Source: a virus. From it: 23,200 nt of DNA. The notes under the pieces are model-generated. The model worked only from the letters and a program-made list of their open reading frames with translations. It was not told the origin of the DNA and searched no databases. The DNA lies in IMG/VR virus record IMGVR_UViG_3300029266_000365, positions 1 to 23,200 of that record; one strand, written 5' to 3'. Shown one piece after another: positions 1 to 19,344 of the stretch; positions within the stretch are counted from its first letter, which is position 1, and the number at the start of each line of letters is the position of its first letter. Position numbers and translations under genes: made by a program.

Positions 1-3000
1 GCACTAATGGCCCAGCTGTTCCTTGTACTACTTGATTGAATTGTTCAAAATTAAACTTAGCACCTTGAGCTGTAAGAGTTTCATCTTGTGCTGCAAACTG
101 AGCCGGAGTGATTTCTTTAACTTTTCCATCTGGTGTTGTAACAATTATTTTGCTTTTACTAAAAGCCAGCGTGTCATCAAAATCATATACACTAATACCT
201 TTAGATACTTGAAAGTTTCTTCTCCCTTTCTCTAATGCTTTTTGCATTTCTTGTTTTGAAACAAAATCTTTTATATCAATACCATCTATTAAAGCACTCA
301 CCATTGCATCAATTTCTGCATTTAAACCAGGGCCTTCAAAATTATAAATTTCATCTATAAAGTTTTGATCTAAACTTAAATATCTTAATTGCCTGCTTTG
401 ATTTACTGCTCCGATATTATTATCCATTATATCACTCAGTATTTTAGGCAAACTTGTTTGACCAAACATACCAGCTAAATTATCAAATTTAACTTTAATA
501 CTTGTTAATGTAGAATTTGTTTCAGCGGCTACGCTATTTGAAATTATAGAAGAGTATTCAACAGCAGCTTCGGCGAATACAGCCATTTGAGAAGCAGACG
601 CAAAAGTATGCTCGCCTTTATCTTGAAGCAACTTAGCTATAATAATATTTTTAGCTTGTTCTCTGCTTATTGTTTCGGGATTTTTTTGCTTAGCTTTGTT
701 TTCTATTATCTTATCTATCTGATCATCTAGCGTAGTCATTGCATCAACCTCAGCTAATGCTATTTTATATAAAGGATGTTCTTTGTTTACTTCGTAATTA
801 TTAATATCGCTATATTCATTCTGAGGAAATTTACTTATATAAGTACCATCTAAAGAAGTTAAACCTCTTGGATGATTTTGAACATTGCTTTGCATTTCAA
901 ACCATCTAAACATACCCGGAGCTAATTCAGGGTTTTTACTTATTAGCTCTGTGACTTTCAGCATCATGTAACTTTGTAATTGTAAATTACTTGTGCTGAT
1001 ATTAGATATCCTTGTTCCTAATTTGTTTTCAATCGCCGCTATTTTAGCATCACGGCTCATTTCGCTTCTTACTGTTGTTTCAACTGGTAATCCTTTTTCA
1101 TCAAATTTCCAGCCTTTAGCTTTGATATTAGATATTTGTTTTAGTATACCTTGATTACCTTTTATAAATTGAACACTAGCCATGTCTATACTAAACATAC
1201 TATCTTCAAATACAATACCTTCTTGGCTGGCAATGTTTTTTATAAATTGATTTATTTCATAACCTGCAGTTCCTTTGGTTGTACCTAAGTATCTGTGATG
1301 CTGCCCAAACATACCCCCTATAAATCTAGTTATACCCTTACCACTAAACAATTTAATGTCTAATGATTTCATTAACGCAATTGAAAAATCCATTAATTCT
1401 TGCATGGCAACTTCATTATTTTTAGAAGTATTGTTTTTTAAGTATTCTTCAAATTGTTTTTTAATATCAGGGTTAACTCCGTCTTGATCTAAAGCAACAC
1501 GCATATTATCCTTAAATGCTTTTATGCCAGGGTTAACTAAGTTGTTAAAATTTTCATCCCAATAAACTTTTTGTTCAGCTGTAATATCACTATACCAATC
1601 TACGAAAGCATCACCATAAGCGCCATTAATAGCTGTTGAAAGCCCAATGCTTATTCCCTCTTTCATTAAAGCTTGCAAATCCATACCAGCTTGATAATTA
1701 CGGGTACCATTTTCTATTTGAGATTCTAAAACAACTAAATTGCTTGCAATCTCTAAAGCATTTAAATTTTCTTGGTTATTTATTAAAGCATCTTTAATCT
1801 CACTATTATCTTTATTTAATTCTGCGTTAAGCTTTTGAAATCCATAAGCTTCTGCTGTTGCTTTAGCTATAGATTCTTTTCTTCCTCTTATTAAAGATTG
1901 TGTAGTTCCATCACTATTAAGAATAATTTGTTTAGATAAAAACAAATCTTCATCAATAACATTCTCAATGTTCGGATGTTTACGTATTATTTGATTACCA
2001 CTTGTAGAGCCTTTATTTTCTGTACTAGTTTTTTCTCTATCAACTTTTGAATTTTCCCAAACATTAAAGTCTACAAAGTTAGGTATAAAAGTTTTTCCAT
2101 CTGTGCTAAATTTTCCGCCTACAGATTTTTGAATACCTTCTGGATAAGAATTTATTAAATAATCGGTTGCTAAATTTTTAAGTAATGGTATTCTATTTTT
2201 TACCAGCCAATTCTTATAGCTGTTATTAGCCTTACCACCCATCAGCTTTTTCATATCAATGTCTAAAGCTTTACCAAATTCTTTTTTTAATTCAACAATT
2301 AGTGGAAACTTTTTTGAAACATTTAACGATACTTTAGTATCATATGGTGTTTTTAAAACTCTAACTATTCTTACTAGCTTTTTATCAATACTAAGCTCTG
2401 TTTCTGTATTAACTACTCCTGTAGTTGTTAAAGTGTTAGTATTTCTTTGGCTTGTGTCTGCTGATTCAATATCATCATCAGCTATAATGTTTAGGTTATT
2501 TTCTAGTGTATCAAATTGGTTATAATCACTATCTTTAAATATTTTATCATAGTTTTCTCTAACCTCATCAGCTAATCTTAATGTTAACCTACCGTTTAAA
2601 AAGCCATATAGAGTACCTCTACCATCAAATTTAGTATTTTCCTGTGCCAAATATAGTCTAGCAACCATCTCTGCAGCCAGGGATTCTTTTTTAGATTTAC
2701 TTAAACCGTTATATCTGTTATTTACAATAACAAATGCCATAGAATATATATTGTTACCTATTATTCTTTGATTTGCTGCAGTCTTTAAAGCAGCAAGCCC
2801 TTGGTCTTTAATAATATCATCTATATTATTTAAATCTTTTTCAGTAGATTTTTGTGTTGTTTGAAAAGTTCTACCACTGTTTTTCTTTTGTGCGGCAATA
2901 CCTTTCTTTGCAGCTTTTTGTAATATTTTTTTATTCTCTTCGTTAGGATCAGCTAATACTTTGTTATAATTTTTAAGAAAATCAAATGCTTGTCTACCTG

Positions 3001-6000
3001 TTTTGAATTCAGTGTTTAAACTTTCTTGTGTTGTTCCGTCTGCTTTAGTAATGCCAAAGAAATTAACAACAATATCTAAAAGATTTTTCCAAAAAGATTG
3101 TGGCGCATCATCAAATTTAATTTCTCCATCAACAATTAAATCAGATAATCCTGTTAACCATTCGCTAGAATTTTCTTCTAAATATTGATCAACACTTATA
3201 CCTTGAGCATCTGCTATTGCTTTATAATTACCACGTAATTTATTTTGTAAAAATTCAAAAGCATTATCACCGTTAACCATTGTTTCGCCTTTAAGAATCT
3301 CTTTAAATTCTGTAATCATTTGGGCAAATTCGGGAGTACCTTCTTTGGATTTAATTATAGCATGTAGTAATTCATGAGACGAAGTGCTAACAGTTTTATT
3401 AAGTATAGCCGCTTCTTTATTAATTATAATTTCACCATCAACATCAAAAAATCCATTTGTTTGTATTCCTAGTAGTGCTTCGTCAATAGCAGCTTGATTT
3501 CCTTTAAATTTTTCTGTTAAATAAGCCACAAGCTCTTCTCCAGTATTAAAAGATTTAACGTTGTCACCTACTATATTTTTTATCTTATCAATTTCTTGAT
3601 CTATTTGACCAGATATTTTTTTAACATCTTTTAAATTATTCCATTTAATTTTATCAGCAGCAGTATTTTTAACTTGTTCCGCAATAGCTTCATCAAGCTC
3701 TGCTTTAATAGCGGGTTTAGCGCCTGGGGTTGCATCTTTAAGTGCGTCTACTAATTTTTTAATTTTAGCATTAAGAGCAATTGCCGGCAAAGCTTCATTA
3801 GCCATACCTTTAGTATAATAAAAACCAGCTAAATTTCCTGAGCCTTTATTAAAATTATTTATAGCATCAATTTGTTCGTCCATTTCTAGCTGAGTTATAG
3901 TTTCAGCACTTACCATAGATTGAAAAGTCTTTTTAACTTTATCTGGATCCATCTGAGCCAAAGTGTACAAGTTCGCAAATTGATTTTGTGCATTGACACC
4001 TCTGTTACTTGACAACCTTGCGCCTCCACCCATAAGTCCACCAGCCGCAAACGATAATAAAGATGTTGTAGCAAAGTCTTTTAAGTCATAATCTGTAGTC
4101 ATTAAATCTCTACCCGATGTAGTATTAGTCGATTGATTGACTAATTTAATTTCCCCTAATTGTTGTATGTTTTCTTGAACAACTTCTTTACTACCTTCTT
4201 TAGCTATAGCTAATAATGTAGCAGCGGTATTACTTCCTAGGTATTTTTGTATACCAGCTTTTAAAGATTTATTAAATCCTTTAACTATATTATTTGGAGA
4301 AGCTGATCTAGCATATTTAATAGCATTACCAAATATATTGTTAGCTAAAAAGAAATCGTCTATTGCTTTTAAAGCTTTTAATCTTGGAGCTATAGGGCCC
4401 GTTATCATATACAGCGCACTCATTTGAAATTGAGCCTGAGTAGCTAATGCAGTAATTTCATCATTATTTAAGCCTTGTTCTATGCCAGCTTGCATTACAC
4501 TTTTGTAACCATTTGATCCTCCATATAATCCTTGAAATGCAATTACATTAGCTAAGTCTTTTTTTATAGGAACTTTTTTTATTAAATTAATAAGTGGAGA
4601 AGTAACTTGCTTACCAGCAATAACCGCTTTAGTTAATGCGGCTTGATTTTTAGTATATTGTCTTCCGCCAACAAATTTACCAGTTTTTTGATATTTTAAA
4701 TACTTGTTAAATTGAGCAACGCTTTTAAATCCATTAGCTTTAGCTACTGCTGAAAGTCCTCTTGCCGTTCCTTTAACTCCTTTAACAATATACCCAAGTC
4801 CCTTAGGTCCCACTATTTGAAGTGTTAAATCTCCTAATACAGGGCCAAGCTGATTAGCAAATCCACGACCACTCATATCGCCTAATGGATCTGTTTCAAC
4901 GCCTTCTGCTTCAGCTTTAGCTATTATTGCTTGTGCCTCTTCAGGGCTTACGACTGCTGTAATATTTAAATTATTTGTTATATCATAAATACCATCATCG
5001 TTAACTATGTAATTAATACCGTCTAATTCAATTTGTTTTCCAGCACCTGTATAAGTATAGCTCATTACTTCTGAAGGATTAAATCTATCCTCATCCATCA
5101 TTCTCCTTTGCATTATACTTTCAGCGTCGCTTTCAAAAGCCGAATCAACCCACCAAGTTAAATCTTCTACACCATGCCAAGCACCACCTGGTATACCAAC
5201 TATAGTATTAAAAATATTAATTCCATAATCCTCAGCAGCATCTGCTATTACTTTATTTGTTGGATCCCAATTGCTTCTAATAATTCCGTCTTCATCAAAT
5301 CCAAGAGTGCCTAAAACCGAACCTTCTTGTACGGCTTTTGTTCTAGCTTTAATTTTAGAGTAATAATCAACTAGCTCTTGTTTATTTGCTTTCTCTACAG
5401 CTGCTACTGCTGGTAAATTTTCTTGTACCCAAGCATCAGCTTTTTTACTATCGTGAGAAGCATACAACTCCCCTTTTTCATTAAGAGTATTTATAGCAAG
5501 ATTTTTAGCTTCGATTAAAGCTAAACCTTCAAATTCTTCTTTGTTATCTTCTATATATTTAATAGCCTGTTTATCTATACCTCTTTCGTCAACTTTATTT
5601 TTATATTCGTTGTACCAATTTTTTAAATCTTTTTGTCTTTGTAGTTCGCCTTTAGATATAACTGAACCATCATTGTTAAAGTACCCTGAATCATCTTGAG
5701 CTACAGACATTTCAGGTCTAAATATATCCGGCTTCCATGGAATAAAATCTAAATCTGTTTGTAGCTCAGCTATGCTATAGCCATCTGGATTATTACCATA
5801 TAGACCGTTGTCTATATTTTCTTGATATTGTTTATCGAAACCTTTTCTTCTCATATAACCTTCAAAGTCATTTGAGTCTATATAAGCTTCATTCAATCCT
5901 TCAAGACTATAATGTTGCCCTACAAAAGTTGTTTCGTTATTCGGATTGTAATACTTATTTTGTTGAGTAGCATCTACTTTTAAATCTTTTCTAGTTTTAT

Positions 6001-6559
6001 AAGTGTCTATTTGATCGTCTAAATCAGCTTCTTCATTATAATCATTATTAAGCAGAAATTTCTCAGCATTGTACCCGCTTTCTTCATCTATTTGTTCTTC
6101 ATCATCTAAATAACTTCCTAGCCAAGACAAAGCTTTGCCTAAAATCCAAGGATTTGATGTACCCATCCCAGGCAATTTTTCCATAACCTTCCCAGCGTCA
6201 GATATAATTTCTTTATTATCAATCAGATAATCTTCTGTATCTTCTGCAAAATTAAACCATTCATTATCTCGTCTTTTTTTCTCTGCGTCTTCTACTTGTT
6301 GTTCTACAGGATAGGCTGGATCATTTATAGCTTCATCACCTGCAATTTCACTTGCTAATACCGAAGAAGAATTTTCCGAATTGGAGACCGTATTGTTTTG
6401 GGACCCTGCATTTGTCTCCGCACTTGCAGGATCTATTTGAAAATCCTCCACTAAAATCGCGGAAGGATATTTTGTAATAAAAGCATCGTATTTACTATCG
6501 GTAACATTGAATTCTTTTTCAACGCCATTGATAACAACTTTATATTTTTTGTTTGGCAT
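1..6559 (-). CDS. Giant polyvalent-type internal virion protein, partial (C-terminus beyond left edge)
   Basis: An uninterrupted minus-strand frame starts at ATG 6559-6557 and stays open to the left edge, giving 2186 visible residues. The start lies 18 bases after the preceding gene, and no closer in-frame ATG precedes it. Features seen: HELLH at residues 1062-1066 with a candidate third zinc ligand E1133 (SSEWL), as in gluzincin-type metallopeptidases; an E..QE..QQ stretch at 792-800 followed by the glycine-rich AGGLMGGG at 839-846, a possible membrane-inserting segment; KFDGRG at 1310-1315 in a helical stretch resembling sigma factor region 2; and DFDDT at 2126-2130, the HAD motif I pattern DxDxT, whose remaining motifs would lie outside the window. 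The gene sits last in the structural run, like T7 gene 16. Family knowledge: phage polyvalent proteins string together effector domains and enter the host with the DNA. The role here is inference. Codons are AT-rich and no frameshift was noticed. Confidence 0.85.
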   Translation of the reverse strand, partial: MPNKKYKVVINGVEKEFNVTDSKYDAFITKYPSAILVEDFQIDPASAETNAGSQNNTVSNSENSSSVLASEIAGDEAINDPAYPVEQQVEDAEKKRRDNEWFNFAEDTEDYLIDNKEIISDAGKVMEKLPGMGTSNPWILGKALSWLGSYLDDEEQIDEESGYNAEKFLLNNDYNEEADLDDQIDTYKTRKDLKVDATQQNKYYNPNNETTFVGQHYSLEGLNEAYIDSNDFEGYMRRKGFDKQYQENIDNGLYGNNPDGYSIAELQTDLDFIPWKPDIFRPEMSVAQDDSGYFNNDGSVISKGELQRQKDLKNWYNEYKNKVDERGIDKQAIKYIEDNKEEFEGLALIEAKNLAINTLNEKGELYASHDSKKADAWVQENLPAVAAVEKANKQELVDYYSKIKARTKAVQEGSVLGTLGFDEDGIIRSNWDPTNKVIADAAEDYGINIFNTIVGIPGGAWHGVEDLTWWVDSAFESDAESIMQRRMMDEDRFNPSEVMSYTYTGAGKQIELDGINYIVNDDGIYDITNNLNITAVVSPEEAQAIIAKAEAEGVETDPLGDMSGRGFANQLGPVLGDLTLQIVGPKGLGYIVKGVKGTARGLSAVAKANGFKSVAQFNKYLKYQKTGKFVGGRQYTKNQAALTKAVIAGKQVTSPLINLIKKVPIKKDLANVIAFQGLYGGSNGYKSVMQAGIEQGLNNDEITALATQAQFQMSALYMITGPIAPRLKALKAIDDFFLANNIFGNAIKYARSASPNNIVKGFNKSLKAGIQKYLGSNTAATLLAIAKEGSKEVVQENIQQLGEIKLVNQSTNTTSGRDLMTTDYDLKDFATTSLLSFAAGGLMGGGARLSSNRGVNAQNQFANLYTLAQMDPDKVKKTFQSMVSAETITQLEMDEQIDAINNFNKGSGNLAGFYYTKGMANEALPAIALNAKIKKLVDALKDATPGAKPAIKAELDEAIAEQVKNTAADKIKWNNLKDVKKISGQIDQEIDKIKNIVGDNVKSFNTGEELVAYLTEKFKGNQAAIDEALLGIQTNGFFDVDGEIIINKEAAILNKTVSTSSHELLHAIIKSKEGTPEFAQMITEFKEILKGETMVNGDNAFEFLQNKLRGNYKAIADAQGISVDQYLEENSSEWLTGLSDLIVDGEIKFDDAPQSFWKNLLDIVVNFFGITKADGTTQESLNTEFKTGRQAFDFLKNYNKVLADPNEENKKILQKAAKKGIAAQKKNSGRTFQTTQKSTEKDLNNIDDIIKDQGLAALKTAANQRIIGNNIYSMAFVIVNNRYNGLSKSKKESLAAEMVARLYLAQENTKFDGRGTLYGFLNGRLTLRLADEVRENYDKIFKDSDYNQFDTLENNLNIIADDDIESADTSQRNTNTLTTTGVVNTETELSIDKKLVRIVRVLKTPYDTKVSLNVSKKFPLIVELKKEFGKALDIDMKKLMGGKANNSYKNWLVKNRIPLLKNLATDYLINSYPEGIQKSVGGKFSTDGKTFIPNFVDFNVWENSKVDREKTSTENKGSTSGNQIIRKHPNIENVIDEDLFLSKQIILNSDGTTQSLIRGRKESIAKATAEAYGFQKLNAELNKDNSEIKDALINNQENLNALEIASNLVVLESQIENGTRNYQAGMDLQALMKEGISIGLSTAINGAYGDAFVDWYSDITAEQKVYWDENFNNLVNPGIKAFKDNMRVALDQDGVNPDIKKQFEEYLKNNTSKNNEVAMQELMDFSIALMKSLDIKLFSGKGITRFIGGMFGQHHRYLGTTKGTAGYEINQFIKNIASQEGIVFEDSMFSIDMASVQFIKGNQGILKQISNIKAKGWKFDEKGLPVETTVRSEMSRDAKIAAIENKLGTRISNISTSNLQLQSYMMLKVTELISKNPELAPGMFRWFEMQSNVQNHPRGLTSLDGTYISKFPQNEYSDINNYEVNKEHPLYKIALAEVDAMTTLDDQIDKIIENKAKQKNPETISREQAKNIIIAKLLQDKGEHTFASASQMAVFAEAAVEYSSIISNSVAAETNSTLTSIKVKFDNLAGMFGQTSLPKILSDIMDNNIGAVNQSRQLRYLSLDQNFIDEIYNFEGPGLNAEIDAMVSALIDGIDIKDFVSKQEMQKALEKGRRNFQVSKGISVYDFDDTLAFSKSKIIVTTPDGKVKEITPAQFAAQDETLTAQGAKFNFEQFNQVVQGTAGPLV

Positions 6560-8554: not shown

Positions 8555-8881
8555 TTATTTGCTACTTTCAACAATTTCACTACCCACTGCGAATAGTTCT
8601 GCGTACGATTCTGAATCATTTTTAAATTGCATTTCAGCAAAATAACCTTTTAAACCATTAGTATTTACATTAGCTGTTTTACTAAATAGTATAAAACTAG
8701 TTAAGGTAGGTCTTATTGTAGAAGGTAATATGTTTGCCGTTATACTTGAAATATCTATTGCAGTAACAATTCCAATTTCTACAATAGTATCCCCGTTAAT
8801 ATCATTAGTATAGTATACTGTATCTCCTATTTGTACCGAGACGTTTAAGGGTTGTGGAAATGTTAAAGTTATCGAATCCAT
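8555..8881 (-). CDS. Conserved small virion structural protein
   Basis: A 108-residue, beta-rich protein. The N-terminal half (TLTFPQPLNVSVQIGDTVYY) and the C-terminal signature (LKGYFAEMQFKNDS, AELFAVGSEIVESSK) look like a small protein I remember as frequent in marine phage structural modules. There it is found near tail genes, and its function is not known to me. No signal peptide, Cys or membrane segment is visible. It begins 15 bases after the 112-residue gene and ends 34 bases before the 218-residue gene. It probably belongs to the particle, either as a tail decoration or in assembly. The placement is inference. Confidence 0.8.
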   Translation of the reverse strand: MDSITLTFPQPLNVSVQIGDTVYYTNDINGDTIVEIGIVTAIDISSITANILPSTIRPTLTSFILFSKTANVNTNGLKGYFAEMQFKNDSESYAELFAVGSEIVESSK

Positions 8882-8896
8882 GTATATTATTATTTA

Positions 8897-9235
8897 TTAA
8901 GGTATTGAACAAACTCCGCAACTAGCGTAAGGTCCTGTTCCACTATTAGCAGCTTCGTCTATCTTAAAAGGACCTGCGGGGTCTGAAACACTTCCAACAA
9001 CGTCAGCACAAAAAATTGCTGCTGATGCACCATCTTTAACCCACACTACATCGTTTGTTACATAAGTATAAGCCAAAAGACTAGCACTTGATCCATCCCA
9101 TCCATTTGTTTTACTCACAAAGCGTATTGTTCCTGAGCTACAATCTACTGTTCTATACGAACCGGTTCCACAGGTTGGACATGCAGTGCTTGTTCCTAAT
9201 GTTCCTAATTGTAACTGTCTATAATTACCTGCCAT
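8897..9235 (-). CDS. Small Cys-rich putative tail-surface protein (paralogue of its neighbour)
   Basis: A 112-residue protein with six cysteines. A CPTC pair lies at residues 19-22, single Cys at 32 and 76, and a CGVC pair at 106-109 near the C-terminus. The N-terminal segment YRQLQLGTLGTSTAC aligns with YRQQTTGTLGTSTAC of the gene just upstream, and the DNA there shares a 27-base identity, so the two arose by duplication. The remainder is beta-rich with few charged residues (TNGWDGSSASLLAYTYV). The start follows the stop of the 78-residue gene by two bases (TAATCATG), suggesting translational coupling. The two CxxC pairs could bind a metal or form disulfides on the particle surface. Function unknown, but the context suggests a tail or fibre component. 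Confidence 0.8.
   Translation of the reverse strand: MAGNYRQLQLGTLGTSTACPTCGTGSYRTVDCSSGTIRFVSKTNGWDGSSASLLAYTYVTNDVVWVKDGASAAIFCADVVGSVSDPAGPFKIDEAANSGTGPYASCGVCSIP
9180..9206. repeat. 27-base direct repeat, copy A
   Basis: Identical over 27 bases to 9422-9448. It encodes the LGTSTAC segment near the N-terminus of the 112-residue protein. The flanking bases also align with small differences, ending in the shared CTATAAT just inside each start codon. The repeat marks a recent duplication of the 5' end of a small gene, or recombination between the two genes. Confidence 0.9.
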
Positions 9236-9237
9236 GA

Positions 9238-9474
9238 TTATTCTCTATAAAATCCGTCACTAGCTACAGTTCCTATATCGTCACTATATATAGTAGTGGC
9301 TGCTGTAAAATTTGCAACGCCTGGTGCTAAGTAATATGTAGCAGCTGTTGATTGAACGCAGCATACATCATTTGCATCTATATTTGAATAGAATAATTGT
9401 ATAGCGGTGTAGCATGACGCGCATGCAGTGCTTGTTCCTAATGTTCCTGTTGTTTGTTGTCTATAATCTGGCAT
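9238..9474 (-). CDS. Small Cys-containing putative tail-surface protein
   Basis: A 78-residue protein made of two borrowed parts. The N-terminus (YRQQTTGTLGTSTACASC, Cys at 18 and 21) matches the N-terminus of the downstream 112-residue protein. The C-terminus (ending ASDGFYRE) resembles the C-terminal end of the upstream 493-residue protein (ending AADGFYTQ). A vicinal Cys pair occurs at residues 38-39. There are few charged residues and the protein is probably beta-rich. I remember similar short endings in proteins of flavobacteria and their phages, but I cannot name a family. The start lies nine bases after the 493-residue gene in an A-rich leader. It is likely a particle-surface or fibre-tip module, and the function is unknown. 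Confidence 0.78.
   Translation of the reverse strand: MPDYRQQTTGTLGTSTACASCYTAIQLFYSNIDANDVCCVQSTAATYYLAPGVANFTAATTIYSDDIGTVASDGFYRE
9422..9448. repeat. 27-base direct repeat, copy B
   Basis: The second copy of the repeat at 9180-9206, in the same orientation and the same reading frame relative to the start codon of its gene. The spacing between copies is 242 bases, close to the length of one small gene. That is what tandem duplication of such a gene would leave. Confidence 0.9.
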
Positions 9475-9483
9475 ATTGTTTTT

Positions 9484-10965
9484 TTATTGTGTGTAAAATC
9501 CATCCGCAGCGGGATTACCTGTTGAATCTAATATTGCGACTGCATTCGCAAATGTTTCCCCTATTTGTATAAAAGCATTAACGGGTGTGGGATTGCAACA
9601 TGCTGTTACAGCATCCGTTACTGAATAATTTAAAGCTATTGGTTGGTAAGTTTCTTGTATAAAATTATCTAAATTTACTATAGAATTAAAACTTTGAGTT
9701 CCAACAAAATCAATTTGAGCTACTACAGTAATTGTTAACGTACTAGGTGTTGCCGCATTATCTACTACTGTATTAGAAGAATTAATAAGTAAAACCGAAG
9801 CTGGCGGGTATGGGGGTGATTCTATTGGCCAACTAAAAGTTGTTATAGGAAGATCGAATATAAAATCTGCAGTGCTTGTAGCTGTTACAGTATATGTTAC
9901 CAGTCCGGGTCCTGCACCAAATGTGTATGCGTTAACATCTATAGGCCCTACTGTTACCGCGCCTGATGTACTAGTTAAGCCAAAACCTATTGATTGTTCT
10001 ACATATTGATCTATCGTCCAAACAGAAGGTTGACCAGTAGAGCAGGGAGAATACGGAAATGTTGTACAAAAACTAGAAGATAAATTACCTGTTAATACTA
10101 ATGTATAAAATGTATTTACAGCAGAAGCTGGAAAAGATACAGAAAATGTTTCAACTCCTGTACTATCAATAACTCCAGCAGATGCGAAAATAGAAACTCC
10201 AGCTTCGTTAGAAACATTTAAATCCCAAGCCGCTCCTTGTACACCTATAATATTAATTTGTCTACTACTAGCTCCAGCTCCCAACGCTGTTTGATTTATA
10301 GAATATCCTACAATTTCTATTTTTGGATTGTATATTTCTTGGCCGTCAGCAAATAGTGTTATAACATCGCCGGTTACATTAGCTATGGGATATGTGTAGT
10401 TAACAAGTATATTCGTTTGTATTATATTTCCGTTGGCATCGAGAATATTGGTATAGCTTATAGTATAATCTGAAGCATCCCCTATAGTAAGTGCTGCTGA
10501 TGGCGCAACTGGAAAAAAGTATCCCGTTTGCGCAGCTATAACCACATTAGCTACTTGATTTGTTTCATCAAAAGCGCCAGATCCGCTATAAGGTAATTCT
10601 GTATATACAGGCACTGTCGCAGATCCTGTAATACCATTAGCATCTATAGTACCATTTATAGTAATTGAATCTATAGGTCTTGAAAATCCTTGTGAACATA
10701 TATCTATTAAAACATCTTGCGATGGCATAATGCTAGGATCAATATAAGTAACTGTGCAATCTATATTAGTTCCATTCTGAGTAAAAACAACAGAGGCCAC
10801 ATTGTTAGGTAAAGGCAATGTAGGACTAAAGTCTGATGCTGTAATCTGATATCCTTGATTGGGCACTAATAAAAGCAAAGCTGTTGGATTGTCATTTGCC
10901 CAATTGACTCCAGCTATTACCGGGAAACTAACTACAGTTACTGTAAAATTATCTATACTTATCAT
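9484..10965 (-). CDS. Beta-rich putative tail fibre / tail-surface protein
   Basis: A 493-residue protein, almost entirely beta-rich and made of small polar and hydrophobic residues. It contains only one Lys (215) and two Arg (96, 235) and I found no His, so it should be very acidic. Two internal segments look homologous: about 35-93 (NQGYQITASDFS onwards) and about 145-208 (QTGYFFPVAPSAALTIGD onwards). A further module follows at about 215-300. The last 26 residues (468-493, ending AADGFYTQ) resemble the end of the next 78-residue protein. There is no signal peptide. The ATG overlaps the stop of the 1926-residue gene as ATGA (10962-10965), a translational-coupling arrangement that implies a shared complex. 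A tail appendage exposed to sea water or to host surface glycans is the best guess; no enzyme motif was seen. Confidence 0.87.
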   Translation of the reverse strand: MISIDNFTVTVVSFPVIAGVNWANDNPTALLLLVPNQGYQITASDFSPTLPLPNNVASVVFTQNGTNIDCTVTYIDPSIMPSQDVLIDICSQGFSRPIDSITINGTIDANGITGSATVPVYTELPYSGSGAFDETNQVANVVIAAQTGYFFPVAPSAALTIGDASDYTISYTNILDANGNIIQTNILVNYTYPIANVTGDVITLFADGQEIYNPKIEIVGYSINQTALGAGASSRQINIIGVQGAAWDLNVSNEAGVSIFASAGVIDSTGVETFSVSFPASAVNTFYTLVLTGNLSSSFCTTFPYSPCSTGQPSVWTIDQYVEQSIGFGLTSTSGAVTVGPIDVNAYTFGAGPGLVTYTVTATSTADFIFDLPITTFSWPIESPPYPPASVLLINSSNTVVDNAATPSTLTITVVAQIDFVGTQSFNSIVNLDNFIQETYQPIALNYSVTDAVTACCNPTPVNAFIQIGETFANAVAILDSTGNPAADGFYTQ

Positions 10966-13900
10966 GGGACTATGTTTCCTGTTAAAACATTAATAGTTAC
11001 TGCAGAAGCGTTAACTGCTGCACCGCTATATATTTCTACTGCATTTAAAAAAATCTGTAATGATACTGAATCAGAATGTGTTTGTAAAACACCGCCTGCC
11101 GTATAAGTATCTGCAAAAATACCAAACGACACCTCCTCTGGATTAGGTCCACTACTGTTATCTACTATATTTTGGGCAGTTGCTCCATCAATTGTAAGTA
11201 AATTATATCTATCTATACTGCCAAATGAATCATTTACATTTATGTAAGGCTGATTAGGTGCTGTCGCGGTAGTTAAAAGAGTACTGCTGACCCCTTGAGA
11301 TACTGCTGAAGGAACTGTATTTCCATTAACATCTCCAGTAGGGCTAGTGGCAAATCCACTTGCATCCACGGTAAAGGTATCAAATAATGCGCTTGAACTA
11401 TAAGTAATTCCCCCGCTATTACCTACATAAGCTCTACCAATGTCTGTTGTATTTCCTTTAATTAAATAGGTTCCACGATTACAATTATGTGTTGTGCCAG
11501 TTGTGGCTGCTAATTGCGTTGTAACCGCAGGGCTAACAGAATTATCTATCCAAGATCTTTGAACTTGCTGAGGCCTAGACGTAATAACAAATTGCAAATC
11601 AAGTAACGCTGCCACTACCGTGTCGCCCTCTATTCTTTGCGTTCCAGTATTTCCGTCGGGATCTATTACAGTCATTGTAAAATCAATAGCTGCCGCGGGT
11701 GTTCCTACAGGAATACAACTATTAGCAATATACCAATTATCTGAACCGTCATTTAATGGTTGTGGTTGTGCCATCCAACTTGGTAAACTTGGCACTGGAG
11801 TTTGTATAACTAAACTTGAGCTTGGATGATCTGGATCAGATAAACCAATAGGGTTATATGTAAAACAATCACCTTCTCCTAATCCAGTTGGTGTTGGAGC
11901 TGCTGTTGTAAAAATTGGGCCTTCTGCTACAGGTATAACATTTAAACTTACAGTAGCGGAATCGCTACATAATCCATCGCAACATAATCTTACTGTAAAG
12001 GATCCTGCGCTTCCATTGTAATTTAATACAGGAGTAAACGTAAAGCTACCATTAGCATTTAAAACTAATGCACCTCCTGTTGTTGCATCTGAAATTAATT
12101 CATAAACAAAACCTGATCCGCATGCTGGATTGCTTTCTGCAAGTTGGAAAGTACCAACAGTATCTTCAACAGTTTCAAAGTTTTGATTAGATAAAATTGG
12201 AGGATCTTTTAATGTAAAGCAGTTTGGGTCTAAGGAAGTTATTACATCAAATTTAGTTACTTCAGTATCTCCAGTGATTGTCTTAGCTCTACCTATTCCT
12301 TGAACATTAAATTCTTCTGAATTAACATTAGTATCACAATTGTCTACAAAAAATGTTGCTAAACCTTTTATATAATTAAACTTTTTACCTTCTTTGTTTA
12401 TAAATTCTTTTACTTCTCCTTCTTGCAAATTAGTTACAAGCGAATTAGTATACCATCCTTTTGTTGTTGAAAACGATGTAGGTACTAATTGTTGCGCTTG
12501 AATTTGAGCTAATGAATATGTTTGTGTGCTTGCTCCAATTTTATATATATATTCTTTAGAATCAGTACCAGCGTAATTAACAGTATGGAATTCTTTTACC
12601 ACACTAGGCATGTCATTAAAAATAACAGCAAACGAACTTTCGTAATAAACCCCTAGGTTAACATCAGACGGTCCTACATTATAAAACGTATTTCTTAATG
12701 GATTTGAATTGTGTTCCCAAATTTTACCTATCTTAAATGTATAATATTTATTATTTAAAAATTGTCCAGACTCTGGTATATATGTTTTTCTACTTGTCCA
12801 ACCGTTTACGTCATCTTTAAATGATATAGTAGTTGAGATTGTAGGATATTCATTTACAAAAGCATCACAATCCGTAGCTGGATTTAATCTATCTGTTTTA
12901 CCAGCACCTAAAGTTTGTTGCCAATAAGGTGTTAAAGAATTTAAAGTTACATTATAATCTCTTCTGTCAGCATCCCAGCTTCCAATTATTTTTGAATTGA
13001 TAGGTAAATTGTCTTGGAAAAAAGCGTGCATTCCATAATCAGATATAGGAGTTAATCCATCGGCTGATAGTCTTAATACCGTACCCCTATTTGCATCAGT
13101 AAAATACATTCTAAATCCATACTCAGCAAAAGACTCTGGATTTTTTGAAATTCCATATTCACCTTTGTAAGTTATAGTTTGACCTAATACAGCCTTGTTA
13201 GATGTAACGTTAGAAGAGCCGTCAGCATTGAATAGAGCATCTTTCTTGGCTAATATTTTCATTGACTTATTCTCGCATAAGGTCACCAAATCGGTGTCTC
13301 TAGCGAAGAGTTTTTGTATTGAGCCATATTCAGGATTTACATCTTTTGTTATGCTCTCTGCTTGTATAAATTGATTAAATCCATTAAGACCTGATATAGA
13401 ATTAAATATTTGTGAAAATATTAAACCCCCACCTCTTGTTTCTTGCTCATAAGGTTCGTCTAAAACGGCACTAGCTTTAACACCATTGTCAATTGTAGGC
13501 GCATTGAAATCATCTCTAATTCTGTCAGACTCAACTCCATTTCCAAACGAATAACAATTAAACCAATCTAACGTATGTTGTACACCGTGTTCTGCCATGG
13601 TATAATTACCCGGTACTTCATAGTATATGTCTAATTCAGTTGCCTCCTTTGGTTCTGTTTCAAATATAGCAGGATTGTTTGAACTAAAACTATCATCATC
13701 TCCAGCTAAACTAATAAATTCCAAACCAATAAAAGCATTACTATTAGAAGGATTGTTGCCGTTCCACTCATCAATTTTACCAGTATCTGTAATTGGATCC
13801 CATTGCAAACCAAAAAGGCCTTGTTCAATAGGTACTATATCTAATTCCCAATAAGTATATTGATTATAGTAATCTTCCCATCGATCCCAAATTGCCGCAG

Positions 13901-16742
13901 GGTTGAACAAGCCAGTATTGTCGGTACAATCATAAGTAGTGGCTTTATTTTCTCGAGAATTAGTAACTCGGTATACAGTTCCATCAGGATCTGTTTTTCC
14001 ATTACCTGCGTCAATAAATCTAAATAGTGTGCCTGAGTCATTTAATTGCTCTAATAATGCGGGATTAGAGTCTTTAATACCTTGACTTCTCCCCGCTCCA
14101 TACCCAGTTGCGTAACCAATAAATATTTTTCCAGCTTGAGCAGTACCATCGGCTCCATTTGCATTTCCGCAATCAGTTGTTATTGAGGATATAAATAATC
14201 TTTCACCACTACCTTGAGCATCTAATCGAGGCCAAGTGTTTCTCCAAAAACCAGTGCTGCTAAATCCGCCATCCAAATAATAACAATATCCTAATGCTTT
14301 TCGCACATAAGATGCTGATTGATTAGACGCTAATATTTTTTCTTCTAATAAAGTATCTTGATTTACTTTAACAAAAAATCTACCTGTAAATTCTGCTTTA
14401 TTTTCTGTTTCTACATCTGCAATTTCTAATTTTAATCCCGCAACTTTATTGGCATATCCATAAGGTTCTGTCGATGTAAAATTCATATCCGGCCCAAAAG
14501 TTTCCGCTGATACAATTCTAACTAGATTACCAGCTGTTATTTTTGCAAACGTAGATATTTTATAGTAATTACTTCTTGATCCCCCCGCAATAACTCTCAT
14601 TACTTGACCAGATGTACTTCTAGTGTTATCGCCAAATATTTCATCAAATTCGCCTTCATCATCAAACCATATTTCATTAGTTCCCTCTATTGGAAAACCT
14701 CCGATATTTGGCCAGTCTCCATCAGCTTGCCCCTTTGATAATTTTACTTCTTTTAAATATTGTGGTGCTTCATTTTCAATAGCTATAATTTTGTATCTAG
14801 CTTCTTCTGTAACAGGATCGCTGTTGTCATGCTCTTTTTTAAGAATAATAAATGTTTCTTCATCAACTTTGTTTCTTTCGGATGATGGAAACGAAAGCCA
14901 TATATTACCGTCCTCAGCATTGTAAAAACGATCTAAAGCTAAATTATAATATTCCTGGCTAGTTTCTTTTACATAATATTTAAACGTTGAAAATTGTTTA
15001 TTTTGATCAAAGAAAGGTATTGGACTTTGTATTTGTGCGAATAGACTATTTGAAAATTGTGCTTCGCTTTTATCAATAACTACTGAAGCTTCTTTACCAG
15101 TAAAAACAGGTGTTGTTCTTCCGTATTGGTCCTGATAAGCAACTCCAATTTGATAAGTTCTAAGAGATTTTACAGAAGTAAAAACAGCTTTGCCATCAAA
15201 TCCAACCCCAACTATTTCCCCTTCAGAGTTTTCAGAAAGTATAGTTTGAGCTATTTCTCCTACATCTATATTAACTTGTAAAGGCTCGGATTGAGCATTT
15301 AACATGTTAAAGTTTTGTGTGTAATTTGCGTATATTAATCTATTAGCTGTTACCTCTTGAGCTTTAGCCCATCGTGGGACATTGTCATAAGGTCTTAATA
15401 ATTGATTACTAGCCACTACAGAAGTAATTATTTCTGATTGTATATTAAAAGTATTTAAATTCCATTCCGAATCAGTCGGCTTAAACGTGTCCACAATATA
15501 TACATTACCATTATTAGTAGCTTTGTATAATATATCTACAGACACAACATCAGGTGGAATATCAGCTGGTATAAAATTAGATATTTCTAGTTGTCTTATA
15601 TTATTAACCATACCAAGATTATAGCCTTGTTTAGGCTGATAATCAAAAGCACCTGGTATAAAAGCAGGATTACTAAATGCTGAATAAGCAGATACTTCAT
15701 TGTTTTTATACTTATATCTATATCCAAATCTTGCAAATCTAAATTCAAAAAATGGAGATTCTTGTTCTAAAGCTACGTCAAATAATAAAAGATCTAAATT
15801 AATCGCGCCTGTTCCGTTCGCGCCTATAGATAATATAGTTACAACAGCTCCCGCTTGATTTGCTGAGCCAGTCCCAATAACACTATCTATACTAACTCTT
15901 ATAACCGCATCTGTATCTAGAGGGTCATTACTTGAATCAGTAATTAAAAGTATTTGCCCAACTCTATAAAAAGGTAAGTTATTACCTATCCAAGTTAAAG
16001 TTTGCGGACCGCTTTCTGGGTTCATAGGTGCAAAAGTTCCAGCTGGAGCCCCTGGTATCTGCTCAACAAAAGAATACAATGTTTGAGTATCTGTTTCAGC
16101 AGGGTCACCATTTAAATCTAACTCTGAAGTCGTGTATGCTTGAATTGTTGGAGGTTGTAGAGGATATTTTTTAATTGTAGTAACGTCTGATTCTATAAAA
16201 TCTCTACCGTAAATTTGTGAATGAGTAATGAAGTTTGTAGTTGATTGCTCCCAATCTGGTATGTATATTTTTTTTGGCTCGTTAAGATTGTCAGTCCACA
16301 TTAACATACCTTCAATAATATTAACTCCAGTAATTAAATACTTTGAATTAAAATTAAAAACATTTTGTTTGTCTACTATTAATGGAAAAGTTACTTGTGT
16401 AATCGAATCGTAAGAAGCTATTATATCAGCCTCTGTTGAATTAATAAACCAGTATATTTTATTGGTATTAGAATCTGTTATAGACCCAATACAAATAACA
16501 TTAGTTAATTCATCTAAATAAACATTAGGATCCCATACGGTTCTTTGCTTCGTACTAGGATTAAAACTAGCGAATGCTTTTTCAATGTTTCCTTTTATAT
16601 TTTGAAATGCTCCTACTTGTGAATCGTCAGAAGAAGCAACTTCTAAATTTAAAGCATCTCTATATTCACCATTGGGAACCAACCTTTCATCAAGGTCTTT
16701 GTTCATTTTTCCACTGGTAAAATTATGATTCAGCTCTGGCAT
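10962..16742 (-). CDS. Tail nozzle/stabilisation-like protein with C-terminal Ig/cadherin-like domains
   Basis: A 1926-residue protein. Residues 11-35 contain GKMNKDLDERLVPNGEYRDA, a signature I associate with large tail-stabilisation or nozzle proteins of marine and crAss-like phages (T7 gp12-like beta-propeller proteins). Residues to about 1500 are a long beta-rich body with many Trp/Tyr/Gly segments. From about 1517 to 1604 there is a cadherin/Ig-like domain with the pattern NGSFTFTP (1564-1571) then NYNG, followed at about 1605-1702 by a second one (DPDHPSSS and VIDPDGNTG, possible calcium-binding loops). About 220 more beta-rich residues complete the chain. It follows the 307-residue adaptor-like gene by six bases and overlaps the next gene by four. 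It is much longer than T7 gp12 (about 800 residues), apparently through added adhesion-type domains. Confidence is high for a gene and moderate for the role. Confidence 0.87.
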   Translation of the reverse strand: MPELNHNFTSGKMNKDLDERLVPNGEYRDALNLEVASSDDSQVGAFQNIKGNIEKAFASFNPSTKQRTVWDPNVYLDELTNVICIGSITDSNTNKIYWFINSTEADIIASYDSITQVTFPLIVDKQNVFNFNSKYLITGVNIIEGMLMWTDNLNEPKKIYIPDWEQSTTNFITHSQIYGRDFIESDVTTIKKYPLQPPTIQAYTTSELDLNGDPAETDTQTLYSFVEQIPGAPAGTFAPMNPESGPQTLTWIGNNLPFYRVGQILLITDSSNDPLDTDAVIRVSIDSVIGTGSANQAGAVVTILSIGANGTGAINLDLLLFDVALEQESPFFEFRFARFGYRYKYKNNEVSAYSAFSNPAFIPGAFDYQPKQGYNLGMVNNIRQLEISNFIPADIPPDVVSVDILYKATNNGNVYIVDTFKPTDSEWNLNTFNIQSEIITSVVASNQLLRPYDNVPRWAKAQEVTANRLIYANYTQNFNMLNAQSEPLQVNIDVGEIAQTILSENSEGEIVGVGFDGKAVFTSVKSLRTYQIGVAYQDQYGRTTPVFTGKEASVVIDKSEAQFSNSLFAQIQSPIPFFDQNKQFSTFKYYVKETSQEYYNLALDRFYNAEDGNIWLSFPSSERNKVDEETFIILKKEHDNSDPVTEEARYKIIAIENEAPQYLKEVKLSKGQADGDWPNIGGFPIEGTNEIWFDDEGEFDEIFGDNTRSTSGQVMRVIAGGSRSNYYKISTFAKITAGNLVRIVSAETFGPDMNFTSTEPYGYANKVAGLKLEIADVETENKAEFTGRFFVKVNQDTLLEEKILASNQSASYVRKALGYCYYLDGGFSSTGFWRNTWPRLDAQGSGERLFISSITTDCGNANGADGTAQAGKIFIGYATGYGAGRSQGIKDSNPALLEQLNDSGTLFRFIDAGNGKTDPDGTVYRVTNSRENKATTYDCTDNTGLFNPAAIWDRWEDYYNQYTYWELDIVPIEQGLFGLQWDPITDTGKIDEWNGNNPSNSNAFIGLEFISLAGDDDSFSSNNPAIFETEPKEATELDIYYEVPGNYTMAEHGVQHTLDWFNCYSFGNGVESDRIRDDFNAPTIDNGVKASAVLDEPYEQETRGGGLIFSQIFNSISGLNGFNQFIQAESITKDVNPEYGSIQKLFARDTDLVTLCENKSMKILAKKDALFNADGSSNVTSNKAVLGQTITYKGEYGISKNPESFAEYGFRMYFTDANRGTVLRLSADGLTPISDYGMHAFFQDNLPINSKIIGSWDADRRDYNVTLNSLTPYWQQTLGAGKTDRLNPATDCDAFVNEYPTISTTISFKDDVNGWTSRKTYIPESGQFLNNKYYTFKIGKIWEHNSNPLRNTFYNVGPSDVNLGVYYESSFAVIFNDMPSVVKEFHTVNYAGTDSKEYIYKIGASTQTYSLAQIQAQQLVPTSFSTTKGWYTNSLVTNLQEGEVKEFINKEGKKFNYIKGLATFFVDNCDTNVNSEEFNVQGIGRAKTITGDTEVTKFDVITSLDPNCFTLKDPPILSNQNFETVEDTVGTFQLAESNPACGSGFVYELISDATTGGALVLNANGSFTFTPVLNYNGSAGSFTVRLCCDGLCSDSATVSLNVIPVAEGPIFTTAAPTPTGLGEGDCFTYNPIGLSDPDHPSSSLVIQTPVPSLPSWMAQPQPLNDGSDNWYIANSCIPVGTPAAAIDFTMTVIDPDGNTGTQRIEGDTVVAALLDLQFVITSRPQQVQRSWIDNSVSPAVTTQLAATTGTTHNCNRGTYLIKGNTTDIGRAYVGNSGGITYSSSALFDTFTVDASGFATSPTGDVNGNTVPSAVSQGVSSTLLTTATAPNQPYINVNDSFGSIDRYNLLTIDGATAQNIVDNSSGPNPEEVSFGIFADTYTAGGVLQTHSDSVSLQIFLNAVEIYSGAAVNASAVTINVLTGNIVP

Positions 16743-16748
16743 ATATAA

Positions 16749-17672
16749 TTAGCTTTTAATCCACTTGGATTGGTTTCTCATTACTTGGACTATCAAATCA
16801 TTTTTAAGCTCTGATAATCTAATTTTAGCATTTCTTTTAGCGGCAAACATATCTTTTTTAAATCTAGCCACTAGATACTCTTGAGTATTAGCTCTAGTAG
16901 ACAAAATAGAATATGCAATAAATTTCATAATTGCATCGTATGCAAATTTATGAACATTCATTTCTCCTTCTTCTCCTAAGCCATCACTTATATATTTTAC
17001 AACAACTAGTCTACCTCTTAAGTTAGAACTCCATCTAATCATTCCTTTTGTATGATCTATATAAAATGTTCCATTAGCTTGTGCTAATTCTGGTTGAATA
17101 CCATATCTTCCGCCATAAGCATATAAAGCCATTAAGTCTGGATTTTCAATAAAAGAATTCCAATTACCTGTAGCTCCAAGCATAGGCGATCTGCTATTAG
17201 CATTCCATCTTCCTAAAGTTGTAGATTCGTTTGCTAAAGGTATATCACCGGAATTGTCAAATGTATAGTCGTATTCGCTGTCTTGTATATATGGTGTTGG
17301 GTTGCTTGATAAATCTGTTCTATATACTATCCTTTCAATACCTCGTTCATCTGTCCATGATAACTTTGTGTAATTAACATAATCCTGCGGCAATATAGTA
17401 TATAATCCAGGAGGCACTTCTACCTCAATAGATTTATCTTGTGGCAAAACATCAAAGCTAAATTCTTGTATAGCTTGCTGTGCCCAATATGCAATATCAG
17501 TTCTTTTAACTTTAGATATAAGTTTGTCAGCCCCAACATACATAATAACAAAATTATTTATTATGTCTTGAATACTTACAAATTGATAATCACCGTAATT
17601 TTCATCATTACTGTTCCATATACCATCTGGGCCTAAGTAGTATTCTTCCTGTGTTTGATTTATTAATCCCAT
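16749..17672 (-). CDS. Putative head-tail adaptor / neck protein (gp11-like position)
   Basis: A 307-residue protein with a mixed alpha/beta look. The N-terminal part (SIQDIINNFVIMYVG, then YWAQQAIQEFSFDVLP) is helical, followed by EVPPGLYTILPQDYVNYTKLSW, a beta segment I remember from marine phage neck proteins. Near residue 210 comes GMIRWSSNLRGRLVVVKYISDG, then a long helical C-terminus with KFAYDAIMKFIAYSIL and a basic end (RFKKDMFAAKRNAKIRLSELK). Such a build, with a C-terminal helical bundle, fits a ring-forming connector. It starts three bases after the previous gene (TAATACATG). It lies just before the nozzle-like gene, where T7 carries gene 11. The family was not confirmed by search. 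Confidence 0.83.
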   Translation of the reverse strand: MGLINQTQEEYYLGPDGIWNSNDENYGDYQFVSIQDIINNFVIMYVGADKLISKVKRTDIAYWAQQAIQEFSFDVLPQDKSIEVEVPPGLYTILPQDYVNYTKLSWTDERGIERIVYRTDLSSNPTPYIQDSEYDYTFDNSGDIPLANESTTLGRWNANSRSPMLGATGNWNSFIENPDLMALYAYGGRYGIQPELAQANGTFYIDHTKGMIRWSSNLRGRLVVVKYISDGLGEEGEMNVHKFAYDAIMKFIAYSILSTRANTQEYLVARFKKDMFAAKRNAKIRLSELKNDLIVQVMRNQSKWIKS

Positions 17673-17675
17673 GTA

Positions 17676-18419
17676 TTATGATTTTTCTTGTTGTACGGTT
17701 TGTTGCTCCATTTGATTTGCTATTTGATACATACCTATGTCTTTAATAGATAGACCTGCAAATGCTAATATTTTAGTAACTAATTCAGTTTCTTCAGATT
17801 CGTGTAGCTCAAAATCTACTGCTGTTGTTGAATCATATAAAGCTTCTCCGAATACCATTTGATATCCCCAAGCAACCTTAGAGGGTTCTTTTATATAATT
17901 ACACGTTACATCTGTAGTTAACTCGGTATCTCCATAGACTTTATAACCAGCATCGCTAGCAACAAAGATGGGCCTAGTGTTTTTGGGCTTAGTATATTCC
18001 GATTGATTTATATACAAAAATTCATTGAAGTTAATTCGCTCTGCTTCTATAAAGGTTTCTATATTAGTTACAGCGGAAGGATTTAAAGTAAATCCATTGG
18101 TTGTGTTTTTGTATACTATTGTACCCAATCTGTATAAATTAGCTGGGGTTTGCCAATAGTTTTGGGCATCATATGTCATTGCTGCATTAGCCTCAAATAT
18201 ATTTATTTTTTCATTAAGTATGTTAAGCATGTCAGAAAATTCCGTATCGTTACCTGGCAATCTTCCAAATTGATTAATATCATAAAAGTATTGTTCGAAT
18301 ATATCTAATTGCGCTTGATTAGCAAACAGATTAAATTCCTGAGGTGTAACATATCCTCGTTGTTCTTTATTAAGTATTGCTAATACTCTTTGATAAACAG
18401 TATCTACGCTTACAGCCAT
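17676..18419 (-). CDS. Putative head-tail connector / ring protein
   Basis: A 247-residue protein. The N-terminal helices VDTVYQRVLAILNKEQRGYV and TPQEFNLFANQAQLDIFEQY, a central beta-rich part, and the C-terminal ELHESEETELVTKILAFAG helix resemble a connector-type protein I remember from uncultured flavobacterial and marine phages, also comparable to ring proteins of crAss-like phages. No enzyme motif is seen. It ends three bases before the next connector-like gene. Its start lies 17 bases beyond the stem-loop at 18436-18476. It probably forms part of the neck between portal and tail. The role is inferred from position and pattern memory. Confidence 0.83.
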   Translation of the reverse strand: MAVSVDTVYQRVLAILNKEQRGYVTPQEFNLFANQAQLDIFEQYFYDINQFGRLPGNDTEFSDMLNILNEKINIFEANAAMTYDAQNYWQTPANLYRLGTIVYKNTTNGFTLNPSAVTNIETFIEAERINFNEFLYINQSEYTKPKNTRPIFVASDAGYKVYGDTELTTDVTCNYIKEPSKVAWGYQMVFGEALYDSTTAVDFELHESEETELVTKILAFAGLSIKDIGMYQIANQMEQQTVQQEKS

Positions 18420-18435
18420 AATTTATATTTTGTTA

Positions 18436-18476
18436 TTATAATAATAGGCCACCAATACAGTAGCCTATTACTATAA
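18436..18476 (-). terminator. 18-bp stem-loop without a U-tract between two structural genes
   Basis: On the minus strand the arms 18459-18476 and 18436-18453 can pair at all 18 positions, three of them G-U, around a five-base loop (18454-18458). It sits in the 63-base gap between the 259- and 247-residue genes. The bases that follow in the transcript are A-rich (TAACAAAATA), not a U-tract. A standard intrinsic terminator is therefore unlikely, and an RNA-stability or processing hairpin fits better. Confidence 0.6.
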
Positions 18477-18482
18477 GGTGAC

Positions 18483-19262: not shown

Positions 19263-19287
19263 GATATAATATAATTAAATAATTGAT

Positions 19288-19333
19288 AAAAAAGTAATAA
19301 CCACCCCCGTCAATTCAACGAGGGTAATCATTA
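19288..19333 (-). terminator. Intrinsic terminator after the capsid gene
   Basis: The minus-strand RNA from 19333 down to 19295 can form a 16-bp stem (arms 19318-19333 and 19295-19310, four G-U pairs) with a seven-base loop. After a single C comes a run of six U (19293-19288). This is a near-ideal rho-independent terminator, 11 bases past the stop of the capsid gene. The G-U pairs become A-C mismatches on the plus strand, so the structure is specific to the observed direction of transcription. Partial read-through would lower expression of the downstream genes relative to capsid. Confidence 0.85.
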
Positions 19334-19344
19334 CAATAAAAATA

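Follow-up and report, generated by a model that had tools for sequence, protein, structure and literature searches.

A domain apparently cut by gene boundaries in consecutive tail genes of a crass-related phage

Background

Two small neighboring genes in a 23.2-kb virus record begin with the same motif, and one of them ends with a motif that also ends the gene upstream. Are these starts and ends interchangeable modules, as an earlier note on this DNA proposed, or do they belong together in some other way? We addressed this question by comparing the locus with related viral contigs and by structure prediction.

Organization of the locus

The record was analyzed at its full length (hereafter, the window). 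Its minus strand carries, in order, genes for proteins of 1926, 493, 78, 112, 108, 218 and 424 aa, followed by a frame of 2186 aa. The features needed below are as follows; the halves are those of the putative module described in the next section.

10962..16742, minus strand: muzzle-type tail protein of 1926 aa (phrog_14478, E 1.6e-127); the array lies downstream of it
9484..10965, minus strand: 493-aa protein (g493), NFTVT-type with repeated Ig-like-looking segments; its C-terminus is an N-half
9487..9633, minus strand: N-half of module 1, LNYSVTDAVTACC...AADGFYTQ; profile matches, and mean pLDDT of 10-residue AF2 blocks mostly 87-94
9475..9486, minus strand: gene break within module 1, TAA AAA AAC AAT, next ATG in the same frame
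9412..9474, minus strand: C-half of module 1, MPDYRQQTTGTLGTSTACASC, the N-terminus of the 78-aa gene; profile match
9238..9474, minus strand: 78-aa gene (g78), comprising the C-half of module 1 and the N-half of module 2
9241..9396, minus strand: N-half of module 2, LFYSNIDANDVCC...ASDGFYRE; profile match
9236..9240, minus strand: gene break within module 2, TAA TC, next ATG in another frame
9170..9235, minus strand: C-half of module 2, MAGNYRQLQLGTLGTSTACPTC, the N-terminus of the 112-aa gene; profile match
8897..9235, minus strand: 112-aa gene (g112); the exchangeable body, after residue 22, is kept in L001 and L002 and has no match in L007
9422..9448, minus strand: 27-base repeat, copy 1, within the first C-half
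9180..9206, minus strand: 27-base repeat, copy 2, within the second C-half
8555..8881, minus strand: conserved 108-aa protein (g108); its homolog lies within a muzzle-type gene in Elemovirus phages
2-6559, minus strand: frame of 2186 aa or more, continuing past the contig end; neither Pfam nor PHROGs gave a match

Elsewhere in the window, proteins of 307, 247 and 512 aa match PHROG virion structural families, and a 341-aa frame at the right end matches a portal family. The 2186-aa frame carries an HELLH motif (TSSHELLHAII), which we take to resemble a metallopeptidase site. At the position of this giant protein, Maribacter phage Panino (L020) has a 5.5-kb gene (14104-19593) annotated 'tRNA methyltransferase', which looks doubtful for the place.

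One domain in two genes

Direct comparison bore out the repeat that had drawn attention to the locus: 9180-9206 and 9422-9448 agree at 27 of 27 bases. The repeat is embedded in a 46-nt stretch of 85% identity, no other 27-mer is repeated on the plus strand of the window, and repeated 16-mers number 12 against a mean of 0.32 in 50 mononucleotide shuffles. The small-gene arrangement is not due to chance because it recurs in related contigs. The protein motifs are likewise as the earlier note had them: YRQ..GTLGTSTAC..C is common to the starts of the 112-aa protein (MAGNYRQLQLGTLGTSTACPTC) and the 78-aa protein (MPDYRQQTTGTLGTSTACASC), and the DGFY end to the 78-aa (ASDGFYRE) and 493-aa (AADGFYTQ) proteins. 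The notion of interchangeable start and end modules needs amending, however, for the region is modular and varies among relatives but start and end appear not to be separate pieces. From their sequences we judge them to be two halves of a single domain, cut by the gene boundary.

Joined, the putative domain has about 75 residues, with the uncurated pattern LxYs..CC..YY..F..A..lYsD..A.DGFY/YRQ..G.LG...CPxC. The part before the slash is an N-half of about 50 residues that ends in the strand DG[FY]Y, and the part after it a C-half of about 20 residues that runs from the strand YRQ to CPxC. The order in the window is 493N/C78N/C112, that is, N/CN/C, with slashes here for gene boundaries.

A search of IMG/VR with a DNA pattern for YRQQ-x4-[L]G-x4-CxxC gave 79 stretches, of which 77 were judged real by eye (L054 and L071 were rejected); in about half of the stretches ...PDGFYQ-x3-YRQQ precedes the motif in the same chain. 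Every open frame in the viral loci and the window was scanned with profiles of both halves. The scan found 165 C-halves, 61 contiguous with an in-frame N-half, 85 split from one by a gene boundary and 19 unpaired, raw counts that include repeats as several loci are drawn from the same contig. Among distinct sequences there are 35 contiguous pairs and 34 with a stop and a start codon between the halves. All counts in this work come from related sequences and hence are not independent. A natural fission or fusion is seen in L055, where LCYNQTNEVDACCDCAP is followed by a stop and then by MSLVNKYINSDNF...DGFYQSAGRYRQQ, and L058, which has nearly identical residues in one frame.

The unpaired C-halves are of several kinds. 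Those of L054 and L156 are weak, chance-like matches; those of L065 and L100 have no N-half upstream within the locus (one is present in L111, which shares its contig with L100); that of L073 is preceded by a truncated N-half; and those of L069, L077 and L092 are gene starts whose preceding gene has no terminal N-half. In L017/L042/L114 (one contig), L111, L120, L123, L124, L126 and L176 extra residues and a gene break come after the N-half. L134 has two: one is of this last kind, and the other comes after a C-half. The extra residues between the N-half and the gene end, with a C-half gene following, number about 90 or more in L111, L120, L124, L126, L134 and L017, and insertions may generally go into the loop that links DGFY to YRQ. 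L069, L077 and L092, with muzzle-type 1887-aa frames and the genes next to them, carry tandem arrays of at least four modules in and after the muzzle gene, and their C-halves include divergent ones such as RQILNNNSGLLESVTACASC.

All 45 full-length joined modules have CC in the N-half and CxxC in the C-half; CxxC was favored by the C-half filter, and only the CC side is free evidence. Rows of A3 were chosen by a pattern demanding CC and C..C, which makes its four invariant cysteines partly selection, not evidence. A pattern search for single-cysteine relatives of the module returned 81 sequences, many of them false positives. One such relative (C..YY...F.D..G...A.G.Y...idsngvI...C) seems to cap many neighboring proteins, as at the ends of L023, L026, L028, L036 and L112. 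The idea that the cysteine numbers of the two halves are coupled comes from few examples (L112, L047, L023) and was not used as proof.

Pfam and PHROGs contain no curated family for the module. For the 25 module sequences of A3 no E value fell below 0.06 in Pfam or 0.08 in PHROGs, and for module proteins of 243 and 314 aa none fell below 0.1 in either. Two module proteins of other contigs match one named record only, MW202828.1, over 18-20% of the query. Among named phages tblastn found no match to the 493-aa or the 78-aa protein, and related-locus searches with either alone gave zero confirmed loci. Across 84,980 species genomes the module DNA pattern hit 16 candidate stretches, whose titles are those of mixed bacteria and one archaeon.

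Structure prediction

The tail of g493 and the 78-aa protein were modeled with AF2 as one joined chain of 147 aa (25 rows), the TAA being read as Q. The chain reached a pLDDT of 83.4 (76.1-83.4 over the five models), with pTM 0.65. Within module 1 the blocks score 87-94, except for 78 at residues 61-70, which are the break itself. Strands 61-65 (FYTQQ) and 72-77 (DYRQQT) stand on either side of the break, and their order in the model suggests a hairpin across it. BFVD contains a viral protein of 469 aa that aligns with the joined model over 140 columns (E 6.7e-11, 34% identity). Against the PDB, the best sequence match has E 1.3 and the best VIA-align Z is 2.6; Foldseek found nothing there at E <= 0.001, and such absence does not show a new fold.

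Is the 78-aa protein instead a whole domain, circularly permuted, so that the unit runs from YRQ to DGFY and the breaks fall between units? It does contain both halves, in the order C-N, and modeled alone (18 rows) it reaches a mean pLDDT of 82.8 in the best of five models, so that it may be able to fold on its own. The other four models disagree with this one (72.3, 68.1, 64.4 and 62.1), however, and the C-half blocks score 76-77 compared with 89-94 in the joined model. Moreover, g493 has an N-half without a preceding C-half, g112 has a C-half without a following N-half, and the single-module chains of other phages have the order N-C. Permuted units are unlikely in our estimate, and the register of the halves, given next, also goes against them.

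Register of the halves along runs of genes

The 61 distinct runs of halves contain 106 NC, 51 CN, 13 NN and 7 CC transitions; that is, N and C mostly take turns along a run, wherever the gene boundaries lie. An N-half begins 60 of the 61 runs (the exception is L100) and a C-half ends 56, which counts against permuted units. As for the five runs that end with N, those of L077 and L029 are cut by the locus end and those of L047 and L089 end in an N-like domain with one cysteine on each side, which leaves L134 as a real exception, its last N-half having no C-half after it. Gene boundaries within runs are N/C in 46 cases, C/N in 3, N/N in 7 and C/C in 4, so the breaks fall inside modules rather than between them. 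The C/N and C/C boundaries are exceptions to the register, as is L120, where an N-half ends the muzzle gene and the next gene lacks a C-half.

A second break point is found among the N/N boundaries. Here the upstream gene, which encodes part of the muzzle, has the terminus LCYDATSxxDACCxC, and M..NKYIxSxxF...DGFYQxxxxYRQQ opens the gene after it. An upstream frame is present for 36 distinct genes; its product has this kind of terminus in 16, CCxC within the last 110 residues in 10 and neither feature in 10.

Might the break be regulatory, with readthrough or frameshifting yielding a fused polypeptide? The stop of g493 is in frame with the next ATG, and so are 13 of the 34 distinct junctions. 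But the frame relations at these junctions (13, 13 and 8) are near random, the stop-to-ATG gap varies from 1 to 27 nt (median 9), the stop is TAA in all 34 cases, and every junction counted has its own ATG. As the frame relation is not conserved we rejected recoding, which we hold to be very improbable. The tight spacing of 1-27 nt is consistent with coupled synthesis of separate chains.

Co-occurrence of the halves in neighboring genes

Does an N-half at the end of one gene predict a C-half at the start of the next? Loci for this comparison (L102-L181, the best 80 of 146 confirmed) were fetched with the 108-aa protein because fetching by the motif would bias co-occurrence. They hold 66 distinct complete g493 homologs. 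All 19 that have the N-half are followed by a gene with a C-half start, and 46 of the 47 without it are not. After dereplication to 49 homologs the figures are 12 of 12 and 36 of 37. Restricting the count to strictly terminal N-halves changes the table for the 66 to 14, 0, 6, 46, because in five genes an extra domain sits between the N-half and the stop. In L103, L106, L119 and L125 the g493 homolog stops at LDLDN(V/I)LI, just short of the N-half position, and the 108-aa gene is next. The whole array is absent from these four loci, and it looks as if the array is gained or lost as a block. By register and co-occurrence, then, an incomplete domain at a chain end would have its completing strand at the next start, the arrangement that donor-strand-type assembly calls for.

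Tail and muzzle context

The 1926-aa protein scores 17 bits with crAss_MUZ_C, below the cut-off of 27, and so is not assigned by the muzzle profiles (PF25731 / PF25729); Big_9 and Cadherin_5 score above cut-off. The Big_9/cadherin-like stretch is residues 1513-1602, at the muzzle C-terminus, and is absent, by length, from shorter muzzles (L017). A 1424-aa protein of L012, homologous to the window protein (37% identity over residues 1-804, 45% over 1015-1491), passes both crAss_MUZ and crAss_MUZ_C (45.5 and 37.8 bits, cut-off 27). Through this relative, which is homologous to crassvirus muzzle proteins, a place of the small genes in the tail-tip protein gains support. With the crassvirus major capsid profile Crass_capsid (PF23898) the score is 13.3 bits, again below the cut-off of 27. 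Named relatives of the capsid (85 records, each with less than 80% query coverage and less than 60% identity) are Flavobacterium elemo phages, Cellulophaga phages, Maribacter phage Panino and MW202828.1; Elemovirus, which holds the relatives with a taxonomy entry, has no order assigned. The window phage appears on this basis to be crass-related, and we do not file it as a member of Crassvirales.

In the window the array separates the crassvirus-type muzzle protein from the conserved 108-aa domain. In Elemovirus phages the 108-aa homolog is inside the gene for a large structural protein, and in L012 and L013 the muzzle terminates in sequence similar to the 108-aa protein. In phages with the second break the upstream gene covers muzzle residues to about 1300 and the downstream gene those from about 1305. 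The L055 downstream gene matches phrog_18548 at positions 4-239, a match that spans parts shared with window muzzle residues 1304-1408 and with the 108-aa protein. One tail protein therefore has two break points, with module genes in both. Threonine-rich stretches (PPTTTTTTTTTVPTTTTT...) close the muzzle-type frame of L112 and L113 (about 3700-5715), and after it comes an additional gene of about 310 aa (MRYICAQPASSFYTWQVEVLINNF...), which was not seen in the other loci read.

The phiCrAss001 study describes the muzzle (gp44) as a hexamer at the tail tip, with a crass domain thought to contact the cell surface; it also reports that insertions in the crass and IG2 regions make the muzzle vary in length and that there are disulfides between proteins of the tail (PMC10172136).

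Variation among relatives

The closest relative that covers the array is L007 (major capsid 89% and ring protein 85% identical); the near-identical contigs L006 and L018 end short of the region. Compared with L007, g493 is 51%, g78 71% and g108 83% identical. At the position of g112, L007 has a 230-aa gene with no detectable similarity to g112 and the same kind of YRQ...CPTC start, and L001 and L002, which are less closely related (ring protein 69%), retain the 112-aa body at 76 and 72%. Bodies are swapped among relatives and copy number differs. The earlier note had held that constant copy number and gene order would speak against diversification; in fact the array is absent from some loci, and some runs exceed four modules. 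The differing bodies agree with its picture of a modular region; a role of the 27-base repeat as a general recombination engine is not supported, since paralogous starts in relatives share only 30-32 of 54 bases where registers are comparable. Within the tract g78 and g112 agree at 27 of 27 bases, versus 14 of 27 in the C-half outside it, and g78 and its L007 ortholog at 19 of 27 in the tract and 21 of 27 outside. From this one comparison the repeat looks like a short, local conversion tract.

Are the conserved halves, then, a mere platform for recombination, at the DNA or protein level, with no need for protein contact? The swapped bodies and the conversion-like tract are what such a platform would produce. 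It leaves unexplained the register across genes, the pairing of N-half ends with C-half starts, and why breaks avoid the linker between modules, which is equally available. We consider it quite improbable.

A probable chain of split domains

The reading that we favor, and think fairly probable, is that consecutive tail proteins are joined by a domain completed across each gene boundary, giving a chain of split domains. The stop and start codon would coincide with the turn that links the DGFY strand to the YRQ strand. Adjacent, tightly spaced genes would be translated, and each C-half would then complete the domain of the preceding protein: the C-terminal N-half of the 493-aa protein would be completed by the C-half of the 78-aa protein, and the terminal N-half of the latter by the C-half that starts the 112-aa protein. 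Each small protein probably has to clip onto its neighbor to complete the domain, and 493-78-112 would form one continuous appendage beside the muzzle at the tail tip, where it might contact a receptor. We suggest that CC of the N-half and CPxC of the C-half may staple the joint across chains, by disulfides or a metal. A gene could be exchanged and its product still dock because every gene begins and ends mid-domain.

How does this compare with known systems? In donor-strand complementation a strand of the neighboring subunit completes a domain, giving a non-covalent chain. Chaperone-usher pili use it in FimA, FimF-FimG-FimH and Caf1. The window domain would likewise be completed by a piece from a neighbor. 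Unlike in pili, the completing piece has about 20 residues, includes two cysteines and is the N-terminus of a different gene product; the window system has no chaperone or usher, and the same domain is unsplit in other phages. SpyTag/SpyCatcher is an engineered split domain, joined by an isopeptide bond, whose two parts link proteins when placed on different chains. The present parts of one domain would also join from different chains, but the system is natural, and cysteines are the only candidate covalent link. BACON repeats of crAssphage are reportedly tandem domains in a tail protein and a hotspot of change. The array resembles them in both respects, in a tail protein of related phages, whereas the module, as far as tested, is a different domain and is split between genes. 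As for the phiCrAss001 muzzle gp44 (PMC10172136), the window array adjoins a muzzle homolog; the difference is that the tail end of the window-type muzzle is broken into genes at one of two places, with module genes in the break. A search of open-licence literature found no paper describing the split module. Domains completed by a neighbor are known from pili; for a phage-tail domain to be interrupted by gene boundaries, with the register kept through successive genes, is new to us.

Conclusions

Phage gene boundaries are usually taken to be protein and domain boundaries. In many environmental phages the boundary appears here to interrupt a domain, and to do so repeatedly and in register. For annotation this yields a rule, an N-half end followed by a C-half start, for genes that current profile libraries miss. 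If the halves join, the module would be a natural split-domain connector, and this would explain how an array of short genes next to the tail tip can vary in size and in content and yet assemble. Unannotated small ORFs would gain a defined place in the virion, and the halves might serve as a tool for coupling proteins. More speculatively, and with the odds in our view somewhat against it, the split, cysteine-stapled domain could act as a natural plug-and-socket code whose halves are universal sticky ends: genes that start with YRQ...CPxC and end with ...DGFY could be inserted, removed or swapped, in whatever number, between the muzzle and its terminal domain, and Bacteroidota phages may in this way rebuild their host-contact surface combinatorially without redesigning the interface.
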